Below, piece by piece: positions 808 through 43,248 of a DNA stretch of 64,000 nucleotides. The translations under genes were made by a program, and so were the position numbers. The notes below the pieces were generated by a model. The model saw only the letters and a program-made list of their open reading frames with translations. It was not told where the DNA came from and made no database searches. Source of the DNA: Linanthus parryae (Eukaryota; Streptophyta; Magnoliopsida; Ericales; Polemoniaceae); contig JALGPY010000007.1 in assembly GCA_023055425.1 (NCBI GenBank), forward strand, positions 13,092,001-13,156,000, in the 5' to 3' direction. Within the stretch, counting starts at the first letter, position 1. Each line of letters opens with the position of its first letter.

Positions 808-809
808 TT

Positions 810-2770: not shown

Positions 2771-3271
2771 TTTGATGAAAGGTGTTTTAGAATTTTCAAT
2801 CTCTCAATTATGTCTACACTCTTCTAAAAGATAAGACAATCAATTCCTTTTCTAAAACGTTTGCTTGAACACTCTGCTTATCTGTCTAAAACGAGACTAG
2901 CACTGCCAACCAGACTCAAATGTGTGTGAATAATCTATTGATAATGAAACATTAACAGTACAAATGAAACAAAATAGTAGCATTCATCGAAAATAACCCA
3001 ATTAAAAACCAATTATTTGGCTCGTGATTTAGCCATGGTTTTATGGAGTGTGTACTTGAAAAGACCCAGCGTTAACTCATAAAACTACATAGTTTATAGG
3101 TTCCCATACCATAATCAATGATCAAATCTTTAAATTACATTACCAGATAGATGAAAACAAAAACTTCGAAACTAAATAAGGTTGTTTGAGTTTGGAGTCA
3201 CAAATTTTACATACGCTCTCTTCTCTTATTCATCTGCCAAGCATAAAACAATCCTCTGTAGATCAACTCCT

Positions 3272-5311: not shown

Positions 5312-5459
5312 TTTTTCAATCGGGAGGATATCCAAAGGAAAAGATTGAATCGAAAGGAATTATTTTTTGAACTCACTTGTATCCAGTACGGAAAAGAGTC
5401 AAAGTGCAGAAGCAGAGAATAGGGATTTGTTGTGATCTTTGAGCAATGGGTCTCAAGGA

Positions 5460-5467
5460 TTTTATAA
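5460..5467 (-). promoter_or_regulatory. TATA box of the MYB gene
   Basis: The minus strand reads TTATAAAA about 150 bp before the MYB start codon, in GC-richer surroundings followed by a plausible short leader. The same box is kept in the inverted copy at 6982-6989, so both head-to-head promoters retain it. Core promoter assignment is inference from position and sequence. Confidence 0.55.
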
Positions 5468-6981
5468 CGGAGTGAGGGCAGCAGTAGTGGGTAGGATTCA
5501 TCAAAACCATTGATTAGACTGTTTAATCTGACGGTATACAGTTTGACTTGTCGGTGGCTATTCATCCTTCTTTTTCTTTCTAATTAGAACGGAGAAATTA
5601 TTTGATGCTTCGCACCTCTATCACATGGTATACAAGTGAACTAGGAATGACCACATATTTTAGTTCTGACATGCATATTGCATGACCTATAAGTGTTGAA
5701 AATGCGTACATGTCGAAACCATATGTTTTGAATGCTAATTTGTCACCTACTTTTTGGAAAGTAACTGCAAGTAATGATTACCGTAACACTCGTGTATTCC
5801 GTGACACTAAATACAAGGAGGGTATAATTGTATGCTATCACCACACCAGTATTTATGATATGTCATTTTAGTCACCGCATTCCACTTACATATGATCATT
5901 TACTATTTTTTTTTATATGTCATAGAAGTATATGAAAGTAAGATCTAATCTGTACTAATAAGGATTACTTAAAAGATCGATAGTATATGCAATATATAAT
6001 TGTAAAGTAAATAAGACAATACGACAGCTATATAAAAGTAAGAGATGCATGACGCACAAGATTTTTATTGTGGGTAAAAGTGTTCACAGTTTGAGAAGGA
6101 TAGTTACGATAAAAAAATCACTTGTTAGCCCCAACTAGTGCTAGACAACTTTATTGTCAGCAACTTTATTGTCAGCATTTGTATGATAAAAGAAATATAA
6201 CGAGCTATCGAACAGATCAGCCACGCGTATTGGCAAGTGGGATAGCTAGCATATTGGTTGATTTGTGTGATAGCTCGTTATATTTCTTGTATCATACACT
6301 TTTTGACAATAAAGTTGTGTAGCACTTGTTGGAGCTAGTAAGTAGGTTCTTTTTATCCTAACTGTCCTCAATCTGAGAACACAGTGAAGGTTTTCTCACA
6401 ATAAAAATCTTGTGTGTCATGCATCCCTTACTTTCATATGGGTTTCGTATTGCCTTGTTTACTTTACAGTTATATATTGCATATACTATCGATCTTTAAG
6501 TATCCTAGGTTACTGTAGATTAGATCTTACTTTCATATACCTCTATGAGTTTGACATATAAAAAAATAGTGAATGATCATTGTACGTGGAATGCTGTGAC
6601 TAAAATGACAGCATAAATACTGATGCGGTGGTAGCGCACAATTATACACTCCTTGTATTAAGTGTCACGGAATACGAGTGTTATGGTAATAATTACTTGT
6701 AGTTACCTTCCAAAAAGTAGATGGCAAATTAGCATTGAGACATAATATACGCATTTTCAACACTTGTAGGTCATGCAATATGCATGTCGGAAGTAAAATA
6801 TGTGGTCATTCTAAGTTCACTTGTATACCATGTGATAGAGGTGCGAAGCATAAGATAATTTCTCCGTTCTAATTAGAAAGAAAAAGGAAGATGAATAGCC
6901 ACCGATAAGTCAATCTGTATACCGTCAGTTTCTTATCAATGGTTTTGATGAATCCTACCCACTACTACTACCCTCACTCCG

Positions 6982-6989
6982 TTATAAAA
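6982..6989 (+). promoter_or_regulatory. TATA box of the inverted MYB copy
   Basis: The plus strand reads TTATAAAA, the mirror of the box at 5460-5467. It lies about 150 bp before the ATG at 7139, so the broken copy may still be transcribed. Confidence 0.45.
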
Positions 6990-7138
6990 TCCTTGAGACC
7001 CATTGCTCAAAGATCACAAGAAATCCCTATTCTCTGCTTGTGCACTTCGACTCTTTTCCGTACTCGATACAGGTGAGTTCAGAAAAAAAATTCATTTCGA
7101 TTCAATATTTTCCATTGGATATCCTCCCGATTCAAAAA

Positions 7139-7850
7139 ATGGAAAATGGATATTCGAATGGATCTCGTTCATCAAAAGCTTTGGATCAAAAATTTCCGGA
7201 ATTTGATCCAGAAAGGAGTGGTGTCCCTGCATCAAACTTGTTCTTACGAGGTTCTCAGATTCTTTTTAATCATTCTGATCACATTCTCCATTGTTAAATG
7301 GAAGTGCAAATCAGATGCATCTAACTTCATCAAACCCAGCTTGTTCTAATGGGAACTCTCAAAATTCTGGTTTCCAATATTATTCTCACAGAATTAGTAA
7401 GAGTCCAAATCGAGACCATGTTGTTCATCCATCGAATTACCTACATTTTGTATCGATGAAGGCTACTTCATCGGACGATGTTCCGAGGTCAATCAAGAGA
7501 GATGTGGATCAAATAAAGGCAATGTCAGGAGGAGTGCGTTCAAGCCTGTAGAGAGATCGATGAAGTCCACATTCATTAAAGAAATGTGGAATGCTGAAGA
7601 AGACTGGTAAACTAGCTAATTGTGGCACATAAAATTTATTTATGGTCCGTTATTAAGTTGTCTTATTAAAGTTAATATTTTCCATAATATGCCATTTTTT
7701 TTCAATTTGTAATTTGCTGAAAAATTTGGTGGACCAATATGGAGAAAGGAGTTGGACTCGCATCGCTAAGATGTTTCGTGGCAGAATCGGAAAACAATGC
7801 GCTTCAAAATACACAAATTGGCAGTCTCCTTGCACCGAAAACAGATGATG
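7139..7850 (+). pseudogene. Inverted, broken copy of the MYB gene (exons 1-2)
   Basis: The copy starts at the ATG 7139 and follows the intact gene for about 50 residues, then a small deletion near 7280 shifts the frame to a stop at about 7297. The rest of exon 1 remains readable in another frame (about 7291-7551). Exon 2 begins near 7715 but stops short: about 90 bp covering the R2 recognition helix and the splice donor are deleted, joining AATGC to GCTTC with a TGC microhomology at the break (near 7800). Exon 3 was never included, since the arm ends inside intron 2. It cannot make a working MYB protein, but its RNA would be complementary or identical to the intact gene. Confidence 0.85.
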
Positions 7851-8343
7851 AACCCACCATTATTATCTTCAATTAGCATTATGTTATCTCGTTCCTATTG
7901 TCAATCTTTACTTATTATTTATTCATGTGCACTGTAAATGGGCCGTTATTCTAATTTCATTGCATATAGAAGATAAACAAACAGCCATTCACAATCCGAT
8001 TAATATGAAGGTGATATTTTTTTCAAAATGAATTACCAAAAAAAAAAGAATGGAAGTAATACATATGATAAAATTACAGTGGAAGACAATTCTACACCAA
8101 ATATCTGTATTTAATGATTGTATACAAGTAGCATTTGTCTTCTTTTACCTTGTATGACCAATCACTGGTACTTTCTTATTTGATACCCACTTTTTAGATG
8201 AGAAATTGATTCTTTGTTTCGTTGTGTATTTTTTAGTACTAGATTAAACTTTGGGGGTCAACATACTAAAGATTACATTCCCCCCATTCTATGTAATAAA
8301 AATGGGACACCGAATATTGCAAAAGAGCTTCATTTTAAATTAA

Positions 8344-9550: not shown

Positions 9551-10267
9551 TATCAATAATCAAACTCATCACCTGAAGAATCCAAAAGTCTTTCTTTTGA
9601 AAATGCCAGATTTGCTTCTGGTTTGCATAGAGTGTCCAGGAACTGGGTGGTCTTGCTCCTGTGTTATCTCTGGTGCCTAGTCATAACTGTGAGAGTTTTG
9701 AGGCATCTGTTCTTCTATCTGTTCTTCATTAGCATTCTCAATCACAGTTGGTTTCCCTAGAGAAGGAGAAAGAGAAGAGACACCAGCACTAGTGTCCTCT
9801 GTTTGTGCATTTTCATCACTTCCTGTGAAGGGGAACATAATGTTGGTAGTGGATGGTGCTGTAGTGGAATCTTAACAGGATCAGAGATGTCAGAAGTAGA
9901 AGAGACAGTAGAGTAAGGAAAAATAGGTTCATCAAACACAACATCTCTAGATATATAGATTTTTTTTGTAACTTTGTCAAAGCATGTGCAACCCTTCTAA
10001 TTCATGGCATAACCTAAGAAGACACATTGTTTAGTTTTTGGATCAAGTTTAAAGTGTGTGTATGGTTTAAGACAAGGATAGCAAGCACAACCAAAATTTT
10101 AAGTTGAGAAAAGTTAGGTTTCTTACCAAGTAACAGTTCCCAAGGTGATTTAAAATGTGTAGTTTTGGAAGGCATACTATTAATGAGATAAACAACAGTT
10201 CAGAAAGCACGATACCAAAAGTATTTATGTAAAGAAGCATGAGTAAGAAAAGTAATAGCAGTCTCAA

Positions 10268-10993
10268 CTATATGTCTATGTTTTCTTTCAGAAATGCCTT
10301 TCTGTTGAGGTGTGTGTGGCATGATTTTTGATGTGTTATTCCATTTTGAGACAAAACTTCTTGGAAAATATAGGAAATGTATTCACCTCCTCCATCTGTT
10401 CTTAAGATCTTAGTTGAGTGACCTAGCAATTTATCAAATTGCACTTTAAATGTAGGAAAGACAACAGACACATCAGACTTATGACATAGAGGAAAGAGCC
10501 ATGTAAATCTTGTAAAGTCATCAATGAACAATACATAACATCTATAACCATGATAACTTTTAATGCTAGAGGGTCCCCAAACATCACTATGAACTAACTG
10601 TAAAGGAGAAGTAGATTTAGTAGCAGACAATTGATATGGCAGCCTAGACATTTTACCAGCTAAACAAAGTTGACATAAAGTAGGAGAGTGTGTTTCAAGA
10701 ACTGAAACAGGTAGCATTTTAGACAGAATTTCATCTGTTAGGTGACCCAATCTGGAGTGACAAACAGAAGAGCTAATTTTCTTCCCAAGATGAGCAGCTG
10801 GACCAGACTGAACATGATGAGACCCGATAGCATAAATAGGATAAAGACCATTTTGACTAGGACCTTGATAAAGAACTTTTCCCGTATCCTTGTCCTGGAT
10901 GGAAAAAGGAATTGGAGTCAAAGACAAATTTAAAATTGTTGTTTTGCACATTTGATAAACAGATAAAGAGATTTGTTGACAATTGTGGTACAT
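10268..10993 (-). pseudogene. copia integrase region, copy A
   Basis: The 241-residue frame contains the GAG-pre-integrase His-Ser-Arg-Leu-Gly-His and Cys-x2-Cys zinc-binding pieces, then the integrase core with His-Ser-Asp-Val-Trp-Gly-Pro and Thr-Asp-Gly-Gly-Gly-Glu-Tyr around the catalytic acids. The frame fails just before the third catalytic Glu; the remaining C-terminal part lies in another frame down to about 9578. Confidence 0.85.
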
Positions 10994-11032
10994 GTAGTGT
11001 GTTGTGAAGTTTAAAAGAATGAGAAGGGGTGT

Positions 11033-11639
11033 TCAAGTAGGCAGTACTAGTGTTGGAGATAGTAAGGTATTATCATTCCCCACAGCTACTTGTTCAGATC
11101 CCAGATATGGCTCAGACAGAGATATATTCTTCAAATCAGATGTCATGTGACTTGTAGCACCCGAATCAGACAACCAATATTCAGCAAGGTAAGGGTTTTG
11201 AGAGTGGGTAGCTATCATAGCAGAGAGGTGCTCAGGTGCAGTCTTACCCTGGTAAGCCTGATCCATGCGATGCCAACAATCAAGGGCTGTGTGGTAATCA
11301 TAGCCACAATTTTGGCAATTGACAGATTGAGAAGTATTGTGATAGTTATGGGTAGAGGTTTTGATGATTAGGGTGAGAGTTGCCTCTTCCCCTTCCATCG
11401 AATCGTCCATAACCTCCTCTGGAGATACCAGAACGACCTCTAGGGTTTGAGTTAGACCGACCATTGGAGCGACCATAACCACCTCTGGAGGGGTAATTGT
11501 TCTGAAAACGACCACCACCCCGAAAACCACCGCGAGAGGAAGAGTAAGAGGTGTGAGAGGAAAAAGCAGACTGACCCAGAACATCAGAATTAACATGTTG
11601 AGACTCCAACATATGTTCTTCAGCTTTTAATAAAAACAT
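11033..11639 (-). pseudogene. copia gag C-terminus and protease, copy A
   Basis: Two overlapping frames carry the continuation of gag. The first (11639-11346) is Arg/Gly/Ser-rich, as in nucleic-acid binding gag tails. The second (to 11033) has a CCHC zinc knuckle (Cys-x2-Cys-x4-His-x4-Cys, near 11310) and the aspartic protease motif Asp-Ser-Gly-Ala-Thr-Ser-His near 11150. A frameshift lies between them. Protease would cleave the polyprotein; here it is not expressible in one frame. Confidence 0.85.
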
Positions 11640-11745
11640 GTAATTCTTCTAAATAGGGAGGTTCAGATCTAGTGCAAAGAGAAGATCTAAAAGAGTTATA
11701 TTCAACAATAAGACCATTTAGGTGTAGAGAAGCATATATTCATCA

Positions 11746-12264
11746 TCAATTAAAAAAATTGCAACAGTCAAATATTTCACGAATATTTTTCAGCTTTTGC
11801 ATGTATAGATCAATACTATCATTTTTCTTCTTGATAGTTTGCAGATCCGTTTTCAACTGGAGGATATTTGAGCGGGTGAGAGAGGCATACCTTCGTTCTA
11901 GTAAGAGCCAAGCGGATTGAGAAGAAGACTGACCTATGACATGAGTAAGGGCCTCCTGGGTCAGGGTAGCGTTGATGAGCGTGAGGAGAGCTTGGTCGGT
12001 GTGCATCCAGATATAATAACCCGGATTTGGCATATCGGTGGGAAGACCGTCGGCGTTGGTGAGAAACTGTGACGGAGGTGGTGTGGATCCGCCGATGTAC
12101 CCAAATAGGTTATGAGTGCAAAAAATAGAGGACAGTTGATGCTTCCATAGCACATAGTTGGAGTTATCCAACTTAAAGGGCATGAAATTGTTGACATTCG
12201 AAAGGAGAAACAGAGGATTGATAGTATTAGCGGAAGCCATGGATAGATCGATAGCAGTGAGCAT
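11746..12264 (-). pseudogene. copia gag (N-terminal part), copy A
   Basis: An open frame of 172 residues beginning a few bases after the primer-binding site. It has the copia gag layout: Lys-Leu-Asp-Asn-Ser-Asn-Tyr-(x3)-Trp, a Tyr-(x)-Trp pair, and a Trp-Leu-Leu-Leu-Glu-Arg-Arg-Tyr helix as in the UBN2/gag family, followed by Leu-Lys-Thr-Asp-Leu. It would form the nucleocapsid of the retrotransposon particle. The frame breaks at about 11746, before the Arg/Gly-rich and zinc-knuckle part that continues in other frames at 11639-11033. Confidence 0.85.
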
Positions 12265-12268
12265 GAAT

Positions 12269-12280
12269 GCTCTGATACCA
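12269..12280 (-). promoter_or_regulatory. Primer-binding site, initiator tRNA-Met
   Basis: On the minus strand the 12 bases read TGGTATCAGAGC, the complement of plant initiator tRNA-Met 3' end that primes minus-strand cDNA of copia and many gypsy elements. It directly follows an LTR end (..TTTTCA). In copy B this 36-bp neighbourhood is deleted. Confidence 0.9.
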
Positions 12281-12580
12281 TGAAAACTTGATTAGGGTTT
12301 CATGAAAAACAGAAAGTAAAGAGGCGAGGTCTCTTCAGAGAGAAGTGCAAATACAGAAAAGAAATGGCAACTCCTAAATCTCATTCAATGAATTTGGGGA
12401 ATAAATACATTGAGTGATGATTGGTCAGATATGTGACCGTTCATAACCATCTTCAGAAGATACCCCAAAGTTTATGTTATGTTACATTTAGGTCCTGGAC
12501 TTATAATGTACTGGGCCTGAGAGATCTAAGATGGGCTTCATTAGAGACTGATCTTGGATTGGGCCTTCTCATTGCAGTTT
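12281..12580 (-). mobile_element. 5' LTR of copia copy A (partial)
   Basis: The LTR ends at the primer site with ..AAGTTTTCA on the minus strand. The other end is unclear in copy A because about 90 bp near 12575 is missing compared with copy B, where the LTR may begin TGAAGAGGACATTAGGG near 45784. The right limit here is an estimate. Confidence 0.6.
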
Positions 12581-12837
12581 GTTGTTCATTCGTCGATGAA
12601 CAACGAATTAGAGCATGCCATGTGCTCTCTTTGCTGACTCACCAAACAAAACGACGTTAACTACTAATGGGCTTTTAGCTTTTCCATTAGTTGTGAATGG
12701 GCTTTTAGCTTTGTCATTAACTACGGATGGGTTTAGAATTGTTTGGGTGACTCGTGATAGTCAGGTAACGAGGGTTCCGTGGAGGCAGCCGCTTTTTTAT
12801 TCTCCCCGTGAAGAGCGGAGCAGGGAAATAGCATGAC

Positions 12838-14451
12838 TAGGGATGGCAATGCGGTTCGATCCGATCCGAAATCCGAGTGATTCGATCCGAATGGATCAAG
12901 TCTGAATCCGATCAATTTTAAAATGGATCAGATATGAATATTAAAAATCAAAATTCGATCCGTATCCATATTCAATCCGAATATATTAGGATATCTGATG
13001 AATATCCGACCCGAAAGGATCGGAACACACATAGTTTTACTCAAATAACCTTAGAGTTATAAAAAAATAAGTTTTTACCTACATATATATAAACACAATA
13101 CACAAATCACTACACATTATGTTTTCAGGCTTGAAGAAAATATTCCACTATGGTTATTGACAATTTTAGTGTTGTTTTTATTGAATTTGTAGACCATTTT
13201 AGACATTACTGGTGTCTTTAACCTTTGAATGATTTTCTTATATTTCTTGGCATATTTACGTTTGTCATATTGCGAAAATATTTTTAATATGTTTGTACTA
13301 TGTAGTAGGGGTGAGCAGAAACCCATTCAACCCGACAAACCCGACCGGTCCGAGCCGGATTGATCGAAAAAAGAGTTAAAATTCGGTTTAATTATTGGGT
13401 ACGGGTTGGGTTTAACCAGACCCGCCAAAAAACGGGCGGGTCACGGGTACCAAATCCTTAGGTCCGATATTATCCGATCCGACCCGCCATACTCATGTAC
13501 CAGTGTTACATCCAACCCCAAGTGAAGTACTATTATTATATGATAGCTAGTGAATGTGTAGTACAATTGTACAAGTACTACCATGTAGCAGTACACCTAT
13601 TTACTACTTCATGTACTAGACCCAGTGACTTTTAACAGAGTTTCTCATAGTTTCGAGAATGAGAGAGAGAAAGAAGGGAGTGTTTTGAGAATGAGAGAAA
13701 GTTTCTCTGCTGTGAAGGTAATTTCCCATACCATTCTCTAGATCCGATCTCAGCAAAAGAGAGAGAGAAAGAAGAAGAAGAAGCTGCCCAATTCATCGCT
13801 TAATTGGTATGGAAGGATAGGTCAAGTTCAGATCTTCAACAACCAATTGGTCATAACCTGTGGAGGAGAGCTTCATCGTTGTCTCTGATCTACATAAACC
13901 TTTTCTTCCTCCATTTTTTCCGGTGATTTCGCTGCCGGAATTACTGTGAAGCTTCCGTTGATTTCGTTGTTGAAGGATGGGACCCGATGAGACCCGTCCG
14001 ACCCAACCCGGTCCGAACGAACCCGAAGATGTTGGTTTTGTAGGGGTAACGATTGGGGCCGGTTCTGAAATTTCTCTACCCGGCTTGATCGGGTCGGTTG
14101 GCCATTTGGTAAAATGCCATGCCGAACCGACCCGTGCTCTGCCCTACTATGTAGGCAGATTTTTTTTTTTGGTGCGGTGACTCTTTTTACATATTTTCTA
14201 AATTTTTTGTGTAATTTAATGAGTAGTAAAAAATACCCAGGATCCGAATCTGATTCCGAATAAGATCCATTGCTCGAGATTTGGATTGTCGGATCGAATA
14301 CGGATATTGCAAATTAAATCCGGTCCAGATCCGATCCGAATCCGTTTTGGATCCGGTTGAAGTTTGATCGAATATGGATCCACTTATTTTGATCGGGTTC
14401 GGATATGGATATAGGTGGATCCGATCTGAATCCGATCCATTGTCATCCCTC
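12838..14451. mobile_element. hAT-type non-autonomous element, copy A (host of a second hAT)
   Basis: Ends are TAGGGATGGCAATG and, on the other strand, GAGGGATGACAATGG. Flanks agcatgac (12830-12837) and agcacgac (14452-14459) are an 8-bp target duplication with one change; in copy B both flanks are agcatgac. The interior is rich in gatccgaatccgatcc-type repeats, common in plant hAT-like MITEs, and has no gene. It is 1614 bp here and 751 bp in copy B; the difference is almost exactly the nested element at 13306-14146. Confidence 0.85.
13306..14146. mobile_element. Nested hAT-type element with perfect 8-bp target duplication
   Basis: The element begins TAGGGGTGAGCA and ends, read on the other strand, TAGGGCAGAGCA. 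Both flanks are ctatgtag (13298-13305 and 14147-14154). Copy B at about 46536-46545 has a single ctatgtag with the same neighbours, so it is the empty site. The 841-bp interior has name-phrase repeats (acccgacccg) at both ends and, between 13630 and 13980, a leader-like GA-rich sequence that may be a captured gene piece. Confidence 0.92.
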
Positions 14452-14568
14452 AGCACGACAGCTTATTAGTAAAAGCTAGAATGAGAGAAGAAAGGGTAAT
14501 GTGGGGTGTACTTGTGTTCATTCGATGTCCTCGTAGGAAGTAATTCCCTTTTCCTTGGGCTCTTTTGG

Positions 14569-17500
14569 TGAAGTATCCTGTTTTGGTATTTTGGGTATTG
14601 TTGTAATTTATTATACTTGGGGAGTCATTGGGAAATTATGAGTTTTGTTTTGGGAATATAATTGGTTAAATTATTTGTGGGGAGATCAAATTTTATTTTA
14701 AAGAGTTGATGGTGGTATATAATAATTACAAGGGTCAATTACTTATTACACACCTCCAATTAGGTGTAATGATCCACTTGCCACCCCAGTTTCAAATACA
14801 TCTTACTTCCACTTCAAGTTTATAATTGCTAACAATTAACAACTGGGTTACTTTCCATCCAAATATATTAACGGACAAAAGGATATATATGTCCATTACT
14901 ATTTCGCCTAACACCTAGTCTATTTGTATTTAATATAAATTGATAAAAAATGAAGAGAAAAAATAGAAAATAAGAAGAAATAGATCTAGCAGACGAAGAA
15001 GAAGAACCAGAGGAGAGAAAAAGTAGAACGGAGAAGAAAGAAGAAGAAGGAGAACTGCATCCGCCACCGTCCACCACTGCGTCCCCCGCCGACCGAACGC
15101 CGTCCGCCTAATCATCAGAACCCCGATCTGGGTGCAGAGGGAGAGAAAAAGAGACGGTGTTAGAGAGGACGACGTCCGTCGCCGCTGCCGGTTGAGGACG
15201 ACGTTCGTGGCGGACGCCGCCGCCGCCACTTTTGCTGTTGATTCTTCATCTTCTTCCTTCTTTTTCTTGTTCACTGATTTGCCTATTTCCTCCTTGATCT
15301 CTCCTCTCTGATTTGCCCCTTTCCCCCTCGATCTCTCCCTATGTCTTCTCCTATCGCCGGTATCTCTCAATCTCTATATCTTACTGCCCCCTCTTAAGAT
15401 AAATGTCTTCTTTTTCTTGTTCACTGATTTGCCTATTGCGGTTGGGTTTCGATTGGTTTCTTGAAGAACAGTGGCCCTTGTTGCAGCGCGGTGGTGCTGG
15501 ATTGGCAGATTCTAAACTTGTGTCCGATTTACACAGATAACCATTAAATATTGTTCCTTTGGGACAAATTATAAACGAAATCCAGTTTGAAGCAAGAGAT
15601 TGATTAAGTCGATAACTTGAGGTCCCTGATGCTCAAAGCAGAGAACGAAAATTGAATAACATTTTTTGGGTTTTTCATGAATTGAAATTAGAGGTGGCTT
15701 TGATTTTTATATTTCGTTGATGGTGTCGAAGATGTTAGTCGTTACAGAATGATTGTTAGATTACAGCGGGTTTTGGGTTTGATGATGGTAGTGGTGGTAC
15801 TACAGTGGTTGTAATGGCGGTGACGGTGGTGGTTTCCAAGTGTTCATAACTTTTTTCATTGACCAAATTACCCTTAAAAAACCGTTAACTAACGGAAAAA
15901 TTTGGATGGAATTTATCCCAGTTGTTAATTGTTAGCAATTACAAACTTGATGTGGTAATAAGATGGTTTTGAAAACGGAGGTGGGAAATGGATCATTACC
16001 CCAAACTAGAAGTGGATAATAAGTAATTGACCCTAATTAAAAATACAGTTGGGTTATTTGTAAGTTTGGCGAACTTGAAGGATAATAGGATAAATAGTAT
16101 TTTTCACATATTTAATTAATTACTATTCCTATTATTCATATTTTATTTTAATTACTTCTTTTATTTAATTAGTGAGGGCATACTCATCACATTGCTACGC
16201 ACCTCATGGAATAATTCATTATGGAAATTATCTCCTAATTCTTTTGGAACTCTCATTTCTTTTCCTCCAAGCATCCATAAATACATATCTTATTCTTTAT
16301 TTTCTCCTTGCACAACCAAATTAACCCGGAATCTATCTCACACCTAAACTATCTCTCTCCCGTGCCCTCTTGGACCCGAGGCTGCCCAAGCCGCCGCTGC
16401 CTTCATCGGCCTCCTCTTTGCTCTCTTTCCTCTTTATTTTGGTGAGTTATTTATCTCCTATTATCTTGATATCTTAATATCAATATGAAATCTCTCTAGC
16501 CTCTACAATGATCACAATCAATGGATTCTTACCCAAGCTATTGTCTTACGACGTTTGATTTTCAGTTACACTGTTGCGATCATAGTTACAATCTTATTCC
16601 CGATATGTGAATCAAAATTCTAGTTCAATTCTTCATCTTATACTTTAATTTTCATATTCATATTGTTAGTCTCGTCATTCATGAAGTCGTAGGATCAATA
16701 CTCAATGGTTGGTATCAATTATGTTCATAGGTTATGGGTAAAATCCTAGTTAAAGAGGGGACGTGTAATTAATTGTTTTGGGTGAATTAGCATGCTTAGT
16801 ATGTGGGTAATAACTTTATTTGAAATGGATAATCATTGTGCTTTGAAGTTAGATTGAAGTCGGAATCATTAACTACATATTTTGGATGTTAGATTATGAG
16901 GTAATCATGAATTTTAGTATTCGCAGCGGGTAAAACCACAGTATTTGGCAGAATTGATGACTAGTAAGTTTAAGAGAGCATAACTTGTGTTTCGGGAAGA
17001 GAAATTTGATTCTGTTTGATGCTTGATTTATTTTCAGACTTTTTCTGGATATAATGAGACTAATTTTTAGTTGTGAAAAGTTTGTGAAGTTTGTGTAATA
17101 TATTAGTGAAGTTATGATAGGTTTTGTACATATTAGATTGCGAAATTTGGAAGCAAAATTTTGGGTCATGTTTTGGATTGTGAATTAAGGGGTGATCTAG
17201 AGACTTAAGACTAAACCTTGAAGGGTCAACATCCTGTTAAGTAGGAATGTTCTATTTATTTGCAGTATTATATTTTGATTAGAGAATTATTTAAATTGTA
17301 GGTGACAATTTCATTGACGAATGATACACCCAGTATTACTAGGAAGTTATTTTCTTTTGCTTGAGATTCAAGGTGAGTTGCCAAGCCTCGAGCCTTATCT
17401 TCTTTTGTGTACACACGATGTTTCATTATATACGTCTCAAAATGTAATTCAGGTTTTACATGCTTTACTTGAAAAGTTGATTTTACTTGAAGTGTTCTTT

Positions 17501-18100
17501 TTAAGCAACTACAAGGAAAATATATTAATGCGTAATGACGTAAAGTTGAAAGAGTCGTACGGAGATCAATAATAACATATGTATCGTTTGGCTTCGGTCA
17601 CTCGAATGATTTTTGTATTGTTTGGCTTCGGTCACTTGAATGGTTTTGTATCGTTTGAACTATGATCACTCGAATGGCAGTTGTCGTGCGGGCTTTGGTC
17701 ACTGATAACTCCTTCATAAGAGTTATGTTGCGTACATTGTACACTGATATTAGTGTATGTTTCGGTGCAAAGTGATGAGATTCAAGTTAAAAATAGAAGA
17801 AATTTAATTTTAGGGTGTTTTTGAGCTTTAAAGTACAATCCGAACGTTTCTTGCATTGTTTTATGTGCAATTCTATGTACTTTATCACATTGATCTTCGT
17901 GGGTGTGCTCGTGTTGTGTTTTACAGGAATAAGACGTGTTGGGAGCATCTGGATAGAAGAAATGAACTTTAGAATAGTTTGGGAGCTCAAAAGGATGGTC
18001 GTAAGATTATTCAGGATGTTTCAAGTTAAAATCGGGATTTTAAGGATATTTAGGGGTCAAATCAAGATTTTCAGAATTCTTCAATCACCTCCATTCACCA
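14569..18100 (+). mobile_element. Gypsy LTR-like sequence, copy A
   Basis: It starts tgaagtatcctgttttgg, matching the LTR start at 30694 (tgaaataccccgttttg), and follows that LTR in order: Met-like cgtaggatcaat block (16690), gtatgtgggtaataac (16800), gtaggtgacaatttc (17300), gccaagcctcgagcc (17380), aataatgacgtaaag (17530). No gag or pol is visible. It is interrupted by a MULE at 14732-16033. The 3' limit is uncertain; a possible LTR end (gtgttaca) at about 24018 would require several more insertions. Confidence 0.6.
14732..16033. mobile_element. Mutator-like element, possible Pack-MULE
   Basis: Terminal inverted repeats start GGGTCAATTACTTATTA on both strands. Flanks taattacaa (14723-14731) and taattaaaa (16034-16042) are a 9-bp target duplication with one change, typical of MULEs. 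Copy B has one taattataa with matching outer flanks at about 47098, the empty site. The 1302-bp interior contains a GC-rich stretch (about 15050-15350) quite unlike its AT-rich surroundings, of the kind captured from gene 5' ends; I cannot name a source gene. Confidence 0.85.
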
Positions 18101-18415
18101 GCATACCTTTCTCTTCTCCACTGTCACCAAAAGTATCGCCATGAGAAACTTCTCCGTCCCACCCTTCTCAACCACTGAACCTGATTTAAACTGCCTTTCG
18201 CAACCAGTTACCACACCCTACACCTACAACGTAACCTCCACCAATGCTGCTCCTTCAACTCCTAAACCATAATCATCATTGCCAACGAAATTCTCCATCA
18301 GACTCCATCAACAACCGGCAACTAACTATCACCTTCTCTATAACCACCAGACCACCTACTGAATTCACTCACAAAACATTATAACCCTTACAACCAATAC
18401 CCAATTCCATCAATT

Positions 18416-18823
18416 CAGGGCCGGTCCGAGACACTTGGGGGCCTAAGGCGAGCAATAAATTTGGGGCCCCAAAGTTAACAAAAATACACCTAAAAGAATT
18501 TGTTAAAAAAATGTAAACTTCTAATAATTGTGTATAATATATTAGATTCAGGTTAGTTTTAACTCATGTTCTTCAACCTTACAATTTTTTTATAAGTAAA
18601 ACTAAAATTTTCACATTTTTCATCAACGAGGTACGAACATGGGTCAAACTTGTGGCAAACTTATTAATTACCACCAAACTAACATACAAATAATTGAAGT
18701 TTTACATTAAAGTATGTATTTAACTAAGCTATAGCAATATTTCAAAAGAAATTACAGGTGGAGCACGGGGGCCCTGCCGGCCCGGGGGCCTAAGGCGGCC
18801 GCCTCTGCTGCCTAGCTATACTG
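18416..18823. mobile_element. hAT-type element beginning CAGGGCCGG
   Basis: A 408-bp insert flanked by catcaatt (18408-18415) and caccaatt (18824-18831), an 8-bp duplication with one change. It starts CAGGGCCGGTCC and ends ..ATACTG; near both ends lie GGGGGCCTAAGGC blocks in inverted orientation. Copy B lacks it but keeps traces of both flanks (49466-49480). No coding sequence. Confidence 0.8.
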
Positions 18824-19799
18824 CACCAATTGAAATCACAGCCACCAGCCACCTAATTCCCAGAAACAAACCCAGAATTCATCAATATCACCACAGACCA
18901 ATTTCAACCATTAATCACCAAACTCCAATACATAATTCACCAAAAACCAACCTGCAGATTATCCTGTACCACTTCACCCCTCCAAATCACTTTTCTCCAC
19001 CAACCTTTAACCAAAACAGCCATAACCACCACCTCACCATTACACATCTACACAACCAGACCAAACCCAACCTTGACCGAAGCAGAGCAGCAGCGCGGCA
19101 GGTTCAAAGATGTTCGTTGGAAGGCAACATGTCCGTGCGAACATCAGTACTTAGCGAAATATCAGACTTTTTCGTGTGCGAACAGAATCAACAATCTGCT
19201 CCTTTGTGCGATGGTTTTTCGTGCGAACAAGCTTCTTCTGGCGGCTAAGAATTTGGGGTAAGACGCAATTAAGGAGGATTTAATGAAAAGAACAAAGCCA
19301 AGCCACTGGTTTTATTCTAAGCCCTAGGGTTGAGGTGATAGCTCCCACAATCTTAGAGGGGTCAAAGTTGCAAAAAGTGATTTTACTCCAAAGTCACCTA
19401 TGGGTAATAGAAGATTTAGGGGGATGTGACTGAAAGAACACGAAAAAGACCAGAGACGGTGCTGGAGGCTATTCTTGGAGCTTGGAGAGCATTGTTGGAG
19501 CGTCGGAATTCATCGTTTTGATCTTTTTCACTCTTTTCTCTTAGTTTTTGGTACATGATCATTGAAAACTTACATCTCAAAGAATTCCGGCAGTGACCGG
19601 TTCTCCACCGGATTCACCGACGTTAGTTACAACACTTCTGATTGATCCACTAATCTGCGAGGCCTTCAGTGTCAAACAATCCAATTGCGTATATAAACCA
19701 AGGAATCCCAAAAGTTAAATGGGTTTATTAAAAGTTCAATTCTATAAATATACACTACATGCAGGTTTTAGTGACCCATTATATTCTTCACCGCCTTAA

Positions 19800-20200
19800 G
19801 AATGCGGAAAAACTCATAAGGTATGGCAGAATATTTACCCTCCAAACGAGTTCTAGTATGTCGGTTGGTTCCAGTAAGACTATTGCACGGGCTACCACCA
19901 ATAACAAGATCAAAGCCTCCCAAACAGCGTATCAGCTGCTCCAGCAGGTCATTAGTAATTACTGGACATTAGTGTATTCATTGATCAGCTTTCTTCTTTG
20001 GCCAGTCTGTTGTCACAGGATTGTATCACATTCATGCTGACTTCATTTATTTTCTACTGAAACGACGCTCTTTATTGAAATTTCAAGGCGATGAAGAGCT
20101 ACTTCCGCCGCACTGATCCCAAAAAAGAGAGACAAAACGTTTATACCTCAAGGGAATGAGTCCTTGAGCACCGAGAGGTGTTATACCACCATGTCAACCT
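19800..20200 (-). pseudogene. DRM DNA methyltransferase fragment, left arm
   Basis: Minus-strand reading gives pieces of a DRM2-type catalytic domain: a His-Leu-Ser-Val-Leu-Lys-Asp stretch, a degenerate motif I (Gly-Ile-Asn-Val-Leu-Ser-Leu-Phe, then Ala-Glu-Val-Ala-Leu-His-Arg-Leu), Ser-Val-Val-Ser-Val-Glu, and motif IV Gly-Gly-Ser-Pro-Cys-Asn-Ser (Cys codon complement of 19885-19887). The catalytic Pro-Cys is kept, but several stops and frameshifts make it non-coding. DRM enzymes carry out de novo DNA methylation guided by small RNAs. The order motif I then IV fits the rearranged DRM layout. Assignment rests on recognising the motifs. Confidence 0.8.
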
Positions 20201-20484
20201 GAAAAAAATTGTCAAGTAACAAGTGTGAGTGTCATTCACAAAAGATTTCTAAAAAAAAGTGACTAGCATTGTCCAAAAGTGTAATTGTGCGTGATGTGCA
20301 TTTATGTATATATAGAAAATGACCCATGGGCATAGTCAATGTGATTTTCTATATATAAATTTTCTATATATACATATATGCAAAGCACAATGGCACTTTT
20401 GGACAACACCGATCACTTTTTTTTTTCTTTTTTGAATGACACTCACAGTCATGAATCGAAAATAATTTCTTTCAAGTTGACACG

Positions 20485-20890
20485 GTGGCCTATCACCTCT
20501 CAGTCCTGAAGGACATATTTTTTGGAGGCATGAACATTTTGTCTCTCTTCTCTAAGATCGGTACCGTGGAAGTAGCTCTTCATCGCCTTGGCATCCCATA
20601 TAAGAACGTCGTTTCAGTAATTAAATGAAGTCAGCAGCGATGTGATACGGTCCTGGTGGCAACAGACTGACCAAAGAGAGTAGTTGATCGATGAATACAC
20701 TGATGTCCAAGAAATTACTGATGACTTGCTGGAGAAGCTGATACGTGATTTGAGAGGGTTTGATCTTGTTATTGGTGGTAGCCCGTACAATAATCTTGCA
20801 GGAACCAATAGGCATACTAGAACTGGTTTGGAGGGTAAAGATTTTTCCCTATTTTATTAATTTTGCCGCATTCTTAAGGCAGTGATGAAT
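20485..20890 (+). pseudogene. DRM DNA methyltransferase fragment, right arm
   Basis: The frame from 20485 to a TGA at 20626 has Ala-Tyr-His-Leu-Ser-Val-Leu-Lys-Asp, Met-Asn-Ile-Leu-Ser-Leu-Phe-Ser and Val-Ala-Leu-His-Arg-Leu-Gly-Ile, matching DRM2 motif X/I. After frame changes, 20702-20857 gives Gly-Phe-Asp-Leu-Val-Ile-Gly-Gly-Ser-Pro-Tyr-Asn-Asn-Leu-Ala-Gly, motif IV with the catalytic Cys changed to Tyr (TAC at 20786-20788), and then Gly-Leu-Glu-Gly; beyond a TAA comes Phe-Cys-Arg-Ile-Leu. The family motif is Ser-Pro-Cys-Asn-Asn-Leu. It is a dead gene piece. Non-coding flanks included in both arms suggest a copy of genomic DNA and not of mRNA. Confidence 0.85.
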
Positions 20891-21255
20891 ATAATGGTTC
20901 GTGGCATATAGTGTATAGTTATAGATTTGAACTTTTTAATAAACCCCTTTAACTTTTGGGATCATTCAGTGAACTGCTTCAACCTTTGTTTATATCTGAA
21001 ATTAGATTGTTTGACATAGTGTAATAGAGTTTTTTCGGTTACATGGTTGATTCTTGAATTGCTTTGAAGTTCTATTTTTTGGTGGTGGTAAAAATGTTGT
21101 TGAAACAAGCAAAATAAGCAGTGGTGTCGGCATTGCAGATCTACATGTACGGTGGTGGTTGACTATATATCACCTGAATTTGATCCCAAAACGCCCATCG
21201 TCTCATGCGATGGTGTTCTTCTCGAGTTAGCCGTTGACATATCGTGGCCTAAAAC

Positions 21256-21753
21256 TAGAGCTTCACTTCGGGTCGGTTAACCGACCGGTTCCGGTTAAAA
21301 CCTATACGAAGTAACTGAATTACAGTATTCGAGGAACCGAACCGAATGGGTGAAACCAAAATCGATAGCAGGACCGAGTATGGTCGCTCTCGGTACGGTT
21401 AGGGGGTATTGGTAACCGAGCCCGAACCAGAGCCGAGTTTTGAAGAACCGGCACCAGAATCGGAACCTGAACCGGAATCGACGGTTTAACCAACTAAATC
21501 GACCGTTTATGACGTGTCCCATTAGTCACCATTAATGTTTTCACCTCATTGAACCGGTTTCGAACCAACCAGAACCGGAACCAAACCGATGAACCAATTC
21601 CGGTCTTACCATTCTGGTTCGGTTAAGCATATTACAAAATATCCGGTTCCGGTTAACCGAAGCGAACTAGCCTATTTCTCGATTAACCGAACCCAGAACC
21701 GGTCGGATATGAAATAACAGGTCCGGTTCTTGTTAACCGAACATGAAGCTCTA
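21256..21753. mobile_element. hAT-like MITE with TAGAGCTTCA ends
   Basis: Ends are TAGAGCTTCACTTCGGGTC and, on the other strand, TAGAGCTTCATGTTCGG, followed by GGTTAAC on each side. Flanks cctaaaac (21248-21255) and cacaaaac (21754-21761) match at six of eight. The 498-bp interior is made of ccggttccggttaacc-type repeats. Confidence 0.75.
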
Positions 21754-21936
21754 CACAAAACACATCTCAAGAATAAGGTAAGTTTAAGCTCATTACATCT
21801 CAAGTTTAGGTAGATTTTAAGGTGATCTAAACATGTACTCACAACTGCAAATTAATGTAGAGTTCAATAGTTTATCTCTGGCTTTTCAAAAAAGCTACCA
21901 AGCTCTAAAAGACAATAATCAAAGAGGGAGATACAA

Positions 21937-22055
21937 AAGTCAATTTGTGGATGCTCTTCTATGCTTTGTTTCTGCTATGTTGGCTTCAGTTGTGTAGTTT
22001 CAATGTTTGAACTAGTTGTAACTGTTTTGTTCTTCTATGGTATTTCTCATGTTTT

Positions 22056-22087
<32 letters not shown>
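21937..22087 (+). mobile_element. Retroposed 3' UTR with poly(A) tail
   Basis: A 151-bp segment ends in 34 A residues (22057-22090, the last three shared with the duplication) and is flanked by the perfect 16-bp direct repeat aaagagggagatacaa (21921-21936 and 22088-22103). This is the signature of LINE-driven reverse transcription of an mRNA, strongly 5'-truncated. The T-rich body (ctatggtatttctcatg) looks like a 3' UTR; the source gene is unknown. The unbroken tail and perfect repeat indicate a young insertion. Confidence 0.88.
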
Positions 22088-22094
<7 letters not shown>

Positions 22095-22754
22095 GAGATA
22101 CAAGTCTCCAAACAGGGCTCTAAAATGAGCACCTCTGCAGGTTTAAAACTGAAACCTCAAGAACATTGTTTTCCAACCACTTTGAAAACCAGTTCAGGGA
22201 GGTTTAAAGACCAAATCAAACAAAAAAAATCAACATGGTATTGAAGCTGGTCATTCATGGAGAAAATAGCGACAAACAGCTTGTGAAATTGATATGTTTT
22301 GGAGCCGCTACAAGTGGATTTTCAGGGCGGGTTTTCACCGGAAAACTCAACATGTTCATGAATATAACCTCGATTTTTCCCAATACAGTTGTGTTTTGAT
22401 ACTTCCAATAGTCTCACGAGACTAAGGGAATTAGAATGGATTAATTTGCATCAAGAAAACAGCAAGGAAGTTACCTTAGCACCGACAGTAGTAGCAGAAA
22501 CCGGCGAGAGACAACATATATTCCGGTGGGGTATGAAGAAACTACATATTTAAAGTCCAAGCTCGGCACCGATGGGTTTGGAAATTCATCAGATCACAAA
22601 AACAATTATCGATTGCACTGAAAACAAACAGAGAGGCAGAATTCAATGCAAAATCAAAGTACGGTTCTTACACAACCTGTTTTCCAAGTTCAATACACCA
22701 GGCCTTTCCAAATTGGCAAAGGGCTATTGGTTCCTAGGCTCATAGTATCACCAG

Positions 22755-23488
22755 TAGGGGTGTTCAAAAACCCGAACGACCCGCCCAAATCGACCGGTCC
22801 AAGTCGAACCTACCTGATGTATAAAGAGGATTGGGTTAAGCGATTGATTTCGGGTTCATAAAATTTCAACTCGCCCATTATCGATTGGTTATGGGTATTA
22901 AAATAATTTGACCGTTTAGCCCCAAACCGCCCCGCCAACATAATATCTTCTTGTTTTTTATATACTTGTAACTATATAGTTATAATCCAACATATATATC
23001 ATAATAATCAATTACACAATAATTTAATATAACTTAATAATATGTGATCGCAGTAGTGATGTCTTCGTGCATAAAAAACATTTATAAGCCTTTAATCATA
23101 TTGACATATAATATGCAAATCGGCCTCAAACATGTAGCTATTTCATTTTCTGAAGTCGTCTCGTCGGATACCCCCAAGATGTACCATGAACATTAACATT
23201 AGACCGCTTGAATGAAAATTATTATTCTAGTAAACATTATTTTGAATATTATCTAAGCGAGTAAGACTTTTTAATCAATGTTCATTCATCGCACGCTGAA
23301 TGTTCTATATTTTATTGATTAATACCCGCCAAAACCGAGCCGAATCGAGCCGAACCGAAATAGTCGGTTAGGTTTGGGTTTAGAGATTACTTGGGTATGT
23401 TTGGGTAGAAATTTTTTGAACCCGAAGTGGTTGGGTTGGGGGAAAAATTTAGGTTTTACCCGCCCAAACCGTCCCGCGAACACCCCTA
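22755..23488. mobile_element. hAT-type element with perfect 8-bp target duplication
   Basis: Ends are TAGGGGTGTTCAAAAACCCG and, on the other strand, TAGGGGTGTTCGCGGG, the standard plant hAT terminus. Flanks are atcaccag on both sides (22747-22754, 23489-23496). The 734-bp interior has no gene. Confidence 0.92.
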
Positions 23489-24235
23489 ATCACCAGTAGT
23501 AGCCGTTTTTTGAAAGGAGGTGTGGTGGTGGTTGTGCAGTGGTAGAGTTGGTGGTGTAGATGTAGAAGATGATGGTGAACGATGAGGATGGTACGGAGGT
23601 GAAAAGAGGAGCTGCCACCTCACCAATGAGAGGCAAGCATCTTGAAGTGTGAGACATAAACAAGGGGCGAAAATAGAAATTTTCTCAAAGTTGAGGGTAA
23701 ATTTTGTGTCTTAAGAGAATTAACAAATTTGAGATATTACACTTCTGCCCCAACATTTAAAATTACTCCATAACTATCCAACAACTTCCAGTATTCTCTG
23801 GCTGACCAGATTCACCCAGGAATTCAATTTCGAAGAACTTACATATATTACCCTCAATTTCTCAATAATGCCACATTTGCCCCAACTTGAATTCTCATTT
23901 ACAGACATTTATGTTGAACAGATGCCAGGAATAACTACTGAAAAAGAATTTTTCACATTCCAACTCAAATGTTTAATTAATTACAGTTTGACCCCTTATA
24001 AAGTTTCAGGGTGTTACAGTCATGGTATATATTCCTTTAATTTCACCATTAGTATTGTCTGGTACAATACTTCGAGAATGCACTTTTAGGACATGTTACA
24101 AATTTGCTGCTAGTATTACTTATCCTAACTCTTGTATTAATTTTACTACTACTAGTAATCCAAAAAAATACCAAATTTTAGAGAAAAAAACTTTGACATC
24201 TCACATTTTCTGGTATACTAAGAATATTTGATTGG

Positions 24236-24940
24236 AAAATCATGAATGATAAATTCTTATAATAGAAATTTGTGCAAGAGAGGTCTTCATATAGCTGCCA
24301 CATGATCATAAGAAGATTATTTCCGCATATTCTTTGGTTGTTCTGATACGAGAGGGGTATGGAGATCCCCCACTCATTGAATTCATTGTTGTTCCTTCAA
24401 ATATTCCTCTCTTCGAGCAGATTCGATATTACATCCACAATCTCTCTGCACTTAACTTGCAATCTTCACTCATCTCTTTTGGTAGTTGTGGAATTCTCTC
24501 AAAAAATTGAAATTTGAGGAAAGAAAGTTAGATATTAATGTTATATTAATACAAGCTCTTGTCTATATAACGCTGAATTTTAGAAATATCATACCTTTTT
24601 TGCAGATCGACGCTTGCACGAAATACATTTGTTGATCCGGGTCGAGGTTGCGAAGAACATATGTTTTGGAGATGAATATCAACGGTTCTATCTTAATGAA
24701 AACAAAGAAACGCTCAGGAGGGGGATGATTGAAAATCACGCCGGCAATATCATTCATGGATCCTCTTACCTCATCCAATACACCGAAGATCCCTTCATTA
24801 CCGAAGCGTATTCTTTGCTTAAAGCCCTGATTTTGGATCAAATATTTAATTTCCGACGGTAGTGGATAGAGATGGATTGTACGTAGCATGCTCTTCAAGA
24901 GCGCCGGGAAGCGGCGCCTTCTGAGAGTGTGGCAGAAAAA
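24236..24940 (+). pseudogene. RNase H-like domain pseudogene, copy A
   Basis: An exon-like segment (24240-24490) of unknown family precedes an intron-like gap ending in ttttttgcag; the second exon starts at 24606. It reads Lys-Met-Asn-Ile-Asn-Gly (Asn where copy B has the Asp of the KxNxDGS motif) in one frame, then in another Asn-His-Ala-Gly-Asn-Ile-Ile and Thr-Glu-Ala-Tyr-Ser-Leu-Leu-Lys-Ala-Leu, then Trp-Ile-Glu-Met-Asp-Cys: the Asp-Glu-Asp pattern of plant RVT_3/RNase H-like domains. Stops (TAG before Trp-Ile-Glu and after Asp-Cys-Thr) and a frameshift inactivate it. Copy B has both of these stops. Confidence 0.65.
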
Positions 24941-25916
24941 TATTACCTTTATATTGCCTAGAGATTCTTATACCCGGTGTTCCCAAATTGTTCGTACCCA
25001 TAACCTAGCAGGCTTGGGCCACAAATGTTATATTGGTCTTTTAAATGCCCTCAAGACTTGTACTTTATTTGGGTTTTTGATAAGCCCAATATTACTTAAA
25101 TAAATACAAGTCTTAATTTCAAAACTAAAGAAAACAAAACTTCTAACGAACCGAAACAAACCGTTTGATGATGAAATGAGATTTACTTACACTCTGCAAA
25201 TAGACTAGAGAGACAATTAAGTCATGATTAATTACTTAATGCGTACCCCTGTTTTGAAAAACTATCTCTTTGCAATCTTAAATGTATCCCATTTGCAAAA
25301 AAGAAAAATCAATGTCAAATTGGTAAAATATTTCATCCAAACACATCACCACAAGAATGGTGTATTTGTCAATGCAAAAATAATAAATTAAATTTATAAT
25401 GACTAAAAGCAAGATGAAGATAGAATAGACGAGAAACAAAAGCTAAGAAGATGAAGAATATGATGACACATTTAAAACATAAAAGTTGAAAAAAGAATAT
25501 TGAGATAAAGATGATGAAGAAGGAAGATTAGAGTATGAGGACACATGAGCGAATTGAACATGACTCTCTATCTCCCTCTTTCCCATTTCTTTTAGTTCTT
25601 CTCTATGCTTCTCCAACAAACAACATTGCTTTTTCTCTCCGTCCCTCCTCCATTCACCTATACGGGTCCAATGGTCAATTAAATCGGACGCCTTGTCATT
25701 ATCAACTCATCTCAAATGCAATTTCCAGCATAGAAGCAACGGCAAAATTCCCCAGTGACCAATTCTCCACCGGATTTTACCAAATATTGACTCCTTGACG
25801 TTAGTTACAAAACTTAGTGGAACATCATTGTTCCATTAATCTGCGAGGCCTTCAACTAAGCTTCTGATTGGTCCACCTCAGCCCATTGCGCTCATGGTGC
25901 CAATGTGCTGACCACC
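24941..25916. other. Non-coding tail of duplicated block, copy A
   Basis: AT-rich DNA shared with 52190-53606 of copy B apart from a Harbinger MITE present only there. I see no gene. A block near 25735-25880 (ctccaccgga, aatctgcgaggccttca) also resembles 19595-19668. Confidence 0.6.
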
Positions 25917-26408
25917 TGAAATTAAATCTGAAGGGCATGAAGGATCTATCACATACAGATCTACAACATGAATTATAGCGGAAGATTCGTGTGTTTACCT
26001 TGTCTTCCTTAGCTCCTTAGCGCAGCGGATGATCGTAGGTTGCTTGCTTTCAAGTGCCTCCTTCTTGATCTTGCTCCCACCAATCTAGTGTGAATCTCGA
26101 TGACGAACACTATGATCTACCCCACGTTCCACCTTCTTGGATGTAGTTGGAGAGAGACTAGGGTTCTCTACAACTAGAGAGTGAATCTAGACAGAGTAAC
26201 TTTTCTCTATGGAATAGCATTATGGCACCCCATAATGTGTTGGAGGATGCCTACTTATATAGGCAAAATTTCTCCTAGGTTTGCACATAAATTCCTAGGG
26301 TTTGACCTTAGCTACTAACCCCTCTAGGTTTGTGCATTAGTGCAACTAACCCCATAAGGTTACGATAATTGCATTGGGCACCCCACATGGGCGCACCAAT
26401 TTCTAACA
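25917..26408 (-). mobile_element. 3' LTR of a minus-strand LTR element
   Basis: On the minus strand it begins TGTTAGAAATTGGTGC and ends ..TTTAATTTCA, a TG..CA LTR of 492 bp. It is preceded on that strand by the polypurine tract gcgagtgggaga (26409-26420). Copy B (53600-53612) shows the site without it: gaccacc continues directly to tcagctt. So the element entered copy A after the duplication. Its partner 5' LTR was not found in the window. Confidence 0.8.
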
Positions 26409-35959: not shown

Positions 35960-36216
35960 ATATGAGATGCAATTGGAATTGTTCCTACCTAAAGTAGTCA
36001 AATTATGGGTGACTTGCCAAAGCAAGCTCATAAGGAGGTGTAAGATGGATCTTGGCCCACTAGAAAATATAAGGATATTTTCCGCATTAATATCTTGAGG
36101 GTTATTAATCCGTAGAAAAATAGTGGGAGCTATATTTGATAAACCAGCAGTTATTGAATATAGTCAAAAATTCACAAATACTAAAACTTGCGTATTTTCC
36201 TTTTGTAGAATTCCAA

Positions 36217-37412: not shown

Positions 37413-37614
37413 AATTAGGAAGATGACGAAGTAGTTTAGTTGAGAGGTGTGGAAATGGAAGTGGGGGTTGTGGATTTGTATTTACAGTTACCACAATGTT
37501 CAAGAAATTACTTTAGTAACCTTCTAACAACTTGCAAAATTTGAATAAAAAGAGGATAAAAACGGAAAACTGGAAAAATATGACAGGCTTCAAATTCTGA
37601 TTTCACCACAATGG

Positions 37615-43216: not shown

Positions 43217-43248
<32 letters not shown>

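Follow-up and report, generated by a model that had tools for sequence, protein, structure and literature searches.

In maize, the inverted duplication Mu killer gives rise to trans-acting siRNAs; it is transposon-derived and silences a transposon. Cases in which a natural inverted repeat silences the genes it derives from have become known one at a time, as with PAI, CHS and poplar ARR17. In published accounts of GmIRCHS and the I locus of soybean, GmIRCHS is a closely spaced inverted repeat of a truncated gene copy beside an intact relative, with 1,087 bp arms lying 78 bp apart; the CHS family is the target of its siRNAs, and dsRNA was detected (PMC13051633, PMC3804491). For Arabidopsis, a published account reports CMT3-type non-CG methylation of the PAI1-PAI4 repeat and of unlinked paralogs and, for both PAI1-PAI4 and the degenerate IR1074 (86%), non-CG methylation that is CMT3-dependent, partly Dicer-dependent and hardly reliant on DRM2 for its maintenance (PMC3203196). 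In the poplar accounts, FERR-R and the ARR17 sex-locus duplicates are gene copies located elsewhere that make siRNAs blocking the parent (PMC7674411, PMC9636151). The account for Drosophila presents the hpRNAs Nmy and Tmy as new hairpin loci that silence the expanding Dox family in recurrent cycles (PMC10292708).

We analysed a stretch of 64,000 nucleotides of the Linanthus parryae genome, referred to here as the window (C90:13,092,001-13,156,000), and searched a genome of 1,513,943,953 bases on 121 contigs (1.51 Gb). An earlier note on this DNA had described a hairpin at 19669..21020, with arms of about 650 bp and a spacer of about 38 bp, as two inverted pieces of a DRM gene that were about 80 percent alike by eye, and each of these points was borne out. 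The inverted repeat measures 1352 bp, with arms of about 650 bp and a centre of 38 bp (Table 1). Global alignment of the arms, including 60 bp of outer flank, gave 576 identical columns out of 688 (84% ungapped); gapped BLAST identity was 80% (left arm 37-652), and self-comparison of the window returned the arms at 77.6% identity over 1293 columns with E=0, so that their pairing is not due to chance. Ungapped identity was 78% in the intron, 81% in the exon and 88% in the 3' part. The right arm, read in two frames, matched NtDRM (4onj, E=4.6e-55) and AtDRM2 (7l4c, E=2.8e-46); the Pfam C5 methylase profile scored 22.5 bits on the right arm, barely above its cut-off of 22, and was not found in the left arm. 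Judged by homology, the DRM identity of the window arms is firm.

Comparison with the parent genes showed that each arm runs from about 110-130 bp of intron through the last exon into 3' flank. The parental last exon begins with VDTVAYHLSVLK and runs for 145 residues to its stop, and the preceding aatttctttcag is intron, the splice sites having been placed by eye. The presence of intron and 3' flank inside the arms indicates that the duplicated piece was genomic DNA and not a retrocopy. In the resulting polarity, the DRM intron is central and the DRM 3' ends lie outermost. By eye, similarity to the parent intron (CCATGG-TTCATT) extends further on the left side of the centre than on the right, and a 15 bp tandem duplication occupies 20344-20372. 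The right arm carries two stops, a 2-nt deletion and a PC motif that has lost its cysteine (SPYNN), and the left arm three frame-shifting indels, a 3-nt insertion and stops, with SPCNS retained; no lesion is common to both arms, though each has an indel near codon 52. The arms thus do not amount to a working DRM, both frames being broken and the upstream exon being absent within the window. Both arms of the hairpins at C90:13.026 and 13.063 Mb reach the equivalent of about 21240-21255, which implies that the original inverted repeat was longer and that the outer part of the window left arm has been lost. The partial copy in the left flank is probably the trace of a junction between two tandem units. 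No Rfam match reached the gathering score anywhere in the window, and the second open frame of the unit (24563-24967, minus strand) had no Pfam or PDB match.

Table 1. Features of the DRM-derived inverted repeat and its surroundings (positions within the window)
Feature	Position	Strand	Description
Left flank	19583..19668	+	69% partial copy of 25746-25854
Left arm	19669..20320	-	antisense DRM 3' flank/UTR, last exon (about 19760-20198) and part of the upstream intron; frame broken, PC cysteine kept
Centre	20321..20358	.	38 bp of palindrome, contains CCCATGGG
Right arm	20359..21020	+	sense DRM intron end, last exon (20476-about 20911, starting VDTVAYHLSVLK) and 3' UTR; frame broken, PC cysteine lost
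Continuation beyond the inverted arms	21021..21255	+	homology to parent DRM 3' flank up to 21056
Decayed tandem unit of about 6 kb (hairpin and spacer)	19669..25446	+	piecewise homology to the unit repeated at C79:81.2-81.6 Mb

The window holds several other repeats. A direct duplication relates 9578-25928 to 42751-53618, the two being 84-95% alike in pieces; the second copy is without 19016-24217, which includes the hairpin, and has about 130 bp there instead. Inside this second copy lies a 1.66 kb element (50164-51822) with 87 bp terminal inverted repeats, flanked on both sides by ATTTTAGAA, likely a target-site duplication. Pieces of copia-type retrotransposons (gag, integrase, RT) are found at 36124-40103, 10271-11626 and 43120-44403. 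A second large palindrome at 4021-8343 has arms of about 2.1 kb that are 88-96% alike and originates from a MYB-like gene (Pfam Myb, E=9e-11). At least 14 rows represent it; those listed are all from C90, where 13 fall at 12.95-13.30 Mb and several form inverted pairs. Its parent may be represented by a 66% match at C90:60.935 Mb, and no relatives were found when a 158-aa piece of the palindrome was searched.

To place the DRM hairpin within the genome, we used its left arm as a query; 40 of 47 candidates were scored, and the counts are lower bounds. At least 70 matches were obtained, which rules out a lone relic, and among those listed all fell at C79:81.198-81.591 Mb and C90:13.026-13.566 Mb. 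When plus and minus rows separated by a gap of at most 60 bp were called as hairpins, the matches listed contained at least 28 last-exon hairpins, 25 on C79 and 3 on C90. One arm was under 250 bp in 3 of the 28, and 14 of the 70 listed rows were unpaired, five of them being genes. Sequence of the C79 array was read over 200 kb; hairpins past 81.395 Mb were placed from match coordinates, and a few were called from short loci. The 46 longest self-matches listed for these 200 kb are 91-99% alike, whereas the arms inside a C79 hairpin are 78-81% alike (ungapped) at 14 of 16 sites tested, the other two being single arms; the hairpin therefore predates its amplification. In the arm tree, the C79 left arms formed one group (100/100) and the right arms another (100/99). 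The window sequence from 19669 to 25446 matches the C79 unit in pieces, a homology that identifies the window hairpin as one decayed unit of a tandem array whose relatives lie on C79. The earlier note had placed it in a cluster of transposable elements; the stretch is indeed repeat-rich, but the hairpin itself belongs to a tandem-array unit.

The centres of these hairpins have been shortened, most C79 hairpins being without about 40 bp per side and those at C90:13.026 and 13.063 Mb without about 260 bp per side. Comparison of the window left arm with a C79 left arm gave a dN/dS of 1.3-1.4. The left and right arms may descend from two different functional paralogs: dN/dS between them is 0.4-0.6, set against non-coding parts that are about as alike as the coding ones and an arm tree that is near star-like, with the gene P1 (C90:13.566) falling among the arms. 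The C79 array unit also contains a short stretch (L019 6486-6525; GGAAGGTGCGGCTGGATCACCTCCTTTT), missing from the window copy, that presumably resembles the 3'-terminal part of an organellar 16S rRNA.

Further hairpins derive from another exon. The exon preceding the last one (exon A) was searched with a protein query based on AtDRM2, and five sets of plus and minus matches were found at C68:8.433-8.479 Mb. The one C68 unit that was read is a 3.2 kb palindrome without spacer, its arms 91% alike ungapped and 86% gapped, and its centre lies at the 3' end of exon A, the polarity opposite to that of the window hairpin. DNA search with one C68 arm gave 29 rows in all, unpaired pieces included, among them five plus arms 98-100% and five minus arms 90-92% identical to the query arm, abutting one another. 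The match list also contains older exon A pairs, two from C23 and one from C37, whose arms are about 35-40 bp apart and whose centre lies on the 5' side of exon A. A tree of exon A sequences joins the left and right C68 arms as sisters (97/96), places them beside the C90 genes (100/99) and sets the C23 arms apart as a group (96/92).

Three layouts are thus present: one built from the last exon and two from exon A, in which the centre lies at the 3' end in one case and at the 5' side in the other. The differences in exon, centre position and polarity indicate at least three inverted duplications of differing age, with C23 and C37 counted as one event by assumption, and rule out a single inverted duplication as the source of all hairpins. 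The last-exon set and the C68 set grew by tandem multiplication of their units, and dispersed copies were not seen. The total is at least 36 DRM hairpins (28+5+3), in the divergent branch that excludes the canonical DRMs. The window locus is old and decayed, as the earlier note had suspected, and is one of dozens, which could not be seen from the window. On sequence comparison, the window hairpin is a decayed member of an inverted-repeat pseudogene family from one divergent DRM branch, and the structure, parentage, amplification and recurrence of the DRM hairpins stand on the same footing. By arm identity, the C23/C37 hairpins would be the oldest, those on C79 and C90 intermediate and those on C68 the youngest.

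The genome search for an intact parent, which the earlier note had proposed, led to five tandem DRM genes on the minus strand of C90, at 13.356, 13.410, 13.435, 13.457 (P2) and 13.566 Mb (P1); their distance from the window hairpin is about 240-450 kb. As far as these genes were read, the last exon was open with its PC motif in all five and exon A in four, the 13.356 copy being frameshifted there; four of the five are accordingly open across the catalytic exons read. All five also contain exons that match residues 141-204 of a Bertholletia DRM, and the one UBA-like piece of the cluster genes that was tested fell below the Pfam cut-off. The dN/dS between P1 and P2 was 0.08 for exon A and 0.09 for the last exon, a substitution pattern that marks the cluster DRM genes as being under purifying selection. 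The joined P2 exons reached a top identity of 67% to other proteins (best 120 of 973 hits). The P2 intron before the last exon is about 4.7 kb (L030 about 640-5370), and a P1 intron (L002 2100-3569) holds, by eye, gag-like sequence with a zinc knuckle. More canonical DRM copies were found at C35:118.86, C35:69.66, C28:10.02, C28:10.10, C28:10.24 and C90:13.67; in a comparison of five of these six, leaving out C28:10.10, the last exon of C28:10.02 contained a stop. The exon A protein search also gave weaker single rows on C1, C46, C57 and C101. In the trees, the cluster and its hairpins split from their nearest relative, C90:13.67, at 100/100.

To examine whether such pairs are peculiar to this branch, we considered the strand arrangement of other families. 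The closest opposite-strand rows were 3.3 kb apart for Piwi (43 rows) and 92 kb apart for RdRP (20 rows), and for Peptidase_S10, with 100 of 285 candidates scored and 146 rows inspected by eye, none lay within 2 kb. Of the 42 exon A rows, those on C68 and C23 were the only ones with a neighbour on the opposite strand at 1 kb or less, so that for exon A the canonical DRMs had no hairpins. The PF00145 family search (30 rows) gave no opposite-strand pair even at known DRM hairpins, which indicates that family searches can miss decayed arms and makes these controls weak.

Next, we compared the hairpins with their possible targets. The computed folding energy is -763 kcal/mol for the window hairpin, whose perfect helices reach 28 bp, and -1246 kcal/mol for the C68 hairpin, both values being without a shuffled control. 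Exact 21-mers of the window hairpin were found at 39 of 680 positions in P1 and 31 of 680 in P2; for P1 there were also 27 exact 24-mers, and 530 of 680 21-mers matched at up to 4 mismatches. This homology to P1 is sufficient for 21-24 nt guides, so that an identity too low for 21-nt matches, which the earlier note had named as grounds for abandoning its idea, was not encountered. Pooling the window hairpin with nine C79 hairpins raised the exact 21-mers to 53/680 for P1 and 47/680 for P2. Against the observed 39, aligned-column shuffles gave a mean of 11 (5-95% range 0-31, p=0.015) with gaps counted as mismatches; the P1 matches are somewhat clustered, which this handling of gaps may explain.

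By contrast with the cluster, each of four canonical copies (C35, C28) had 0/1230 exact 21-mers in common with the window hairpin and C90:13.67 had 3/2030. These counts rule out canonical DRM2 as the target of the window hairpin and go against the earlier suggestion that the host's own RdDM methyltransferase would be the matchable one; the matches point instead to the divergent five-gene cluster on the same chromosome as the possible target. The pooled hairpins had 8 exact 21-mers in common with C35:118.86, and the C68 hairpin had 24/1380 with P2 exon A and 4/2030 with C90:13.67.

The pairing of the arms does not appear to be maintained. Across 12 C79 hairpins, left-right identity was 0.801 within a hairpin and 0.800 between hairpins, which rules out that selection or gene conversion keeps the arms alike on C79. 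No invariant block across the arms exceeded chance (longest 14 nt, p=0.41); with such a block and an Rfam match both absent, a MIRNA gene or conserved miRNA-like block was rejected.

As a proxy for past methylation, single-row C-to-T changes were counted in ten aligned C79 units. At CHG sites they affected 27 of 91 arm columns and 17 of 153 columns in 3 kb of flank (Fisher p=0.0005), a nominal value from ten units of one array with three contexts compared. The CHG excess was present in both arms and at all three CHG triplets. CG changes (12/56 in arms, 21/105 in flank) and CHH changes (32/320 and 84/851) were equal. An excess of this kind would be expected after long CMT3-type methylation of the arms. 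The equal CHH counts weigh against silencing, since RdDM on the arms might have left a C-to-T excess there, although PAI maintenance makes little use of DRM2 (PMC3203196).

By analogy with PAI1-PAI4 and GmIRCHS, the hairpins may be recurrent natural inverted-repeat silencing loci directed against a DRM sub-family, a reading to which we give just short of an even chance. Silencing of the DRM cluster by the hairpins is something we infer, and a neutral origin is about as likely: the hairpins would then be palindromic pseudogenes, produced when replication or repair went wrong in an unstable cluster of tandem DRM genes, multiplied by unequal recombination, and silenced as repeats while inert in trans. 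Decay of the arms without co-evolution, the dN/dS above one between the window and C79 left arms and the lack of a conserved block all agree with neutrality; the symmetric loss of about 40 or 260 bp per side of the centre fits palindrome instability, and the MYB-like hairpins in the same C90 region indicate that hairpin formation is not exclusive to DRM. Neutrality accounts less readily for three layouts within one DRM branch, when the searches, within their reach, revealed no comparable pairs in the three control families, for a CHG excess confined to the arms, and for exact 21-mers to P1 above the column shuffles.

Capture of a DRM exon by a fold-back or Pack-type transposable element is disfavoured and very unlikely. 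The window is rich in copia pieces and fold-back elements do resemble long inverted repeats, but the hairpins lack the dispersed copies with target-site duplications of such an element: the arm matches listed are confined to two clusters, copies have the 6 kb tandem unit in common, intron and 3' flank were carried along, and by eye there is no target-site duplication at 19669/21020 or at the ends of the C68 hairpin. Long palindromes with tiny spacers are also a known assembly artefact, arising from fold-back chimeric reads. Arms produced in this way would be identical, whereas those observed are about 20% different, neighbouring units are 91-99% alike and the trees are structured, and we give this explanation next to no credence.

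If the hairpins are silencing loci, their read-through transcripts would fold, Dicer would cut the best-paired stretches of the folded RNA, and the small RNAs would be directed both at the paralogous DRM cluster and at the hairpins from which they came. The hairpins would have become CHG-methylated heterochromatin, and older arrays would decay while at least one younger array (C68) formed later. The window copy is an old and probably weak or dead member of the family, and its target, if any, would be the divergent DRM cluster and not canonical DRM2. A bolder and rather unlikely extension is a plant counterpart of hpRNA arms races, in which an amplified, fast-diverging DRM branch would be checked by hairpins from its own exons, reborn at least three times as earlier ones drifted out of match. 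The recurrent target would then be the silencing machinery's own writer, possibly for dosage or feedback control, and the window hairpin would be a fossil of the middle generation.

One branch of the family of writers of RNA-directed methylation has thus yielded hairpins in at least three layouts, with two sets amplified (five on C68, 25 on C79). If small RNAs are made, RNA silencing would be turned on its own methyltransferase family, and three hairpin ages in one genome would display birth, amplification and death; even if inert, the hairpins are unusual in recording how a single gene lineage formed palindromes repeatedly. From the set one can also predict the DRM copies that are possible targets and those that are not. 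No description of DRM-derived hairpins was found among titles and abstract beginnings in the open-access literature, whose coverage is incomplete.

Mu killer resembles the DRM hairpins in being an inverted duplication and differs from them in its transposon origin and target. Nmy and Tmy belong to animal RNAi, act against meiotic drivers and were established by experiment, whereas the DRM hairpins are from a plant and are known from sequence alone (PMC10292708). The FERR-R and ARR17 loci of poplar are alike in being duplicates at another locus, with a different class of target (PMC7674411, PMC9636151). PAI1-PAI4 and IR1074 are likewise inverted repeats of endogenous genes, IR1074 being degenerate (86%) as the DRM arms are; unlike PAI, methylation of the DRM hairpins is deduced from C-to-T changes, and the DRM arms are pseudogene exons lying in arrays (PMC3203196). 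Both GmIRCHS and the DRM hairpins are closely spaced inverted repeats of a piece of an endogenous gene with an intact relative present; GmIRCHS is single and tail-to-tail, whereas the DRM hairpins number dozens in three layouts and have a DNA methyltransferase branch as their putative target (PMC13051633, PMC3804491). Among the systems compared, the natural inverted-repeat silencing locus exemplified by GmIRCHS is the closest known kind (PMC13051633), and the target family, the repeated births and the arrays seem to be the new elements of the DRM hairpins.
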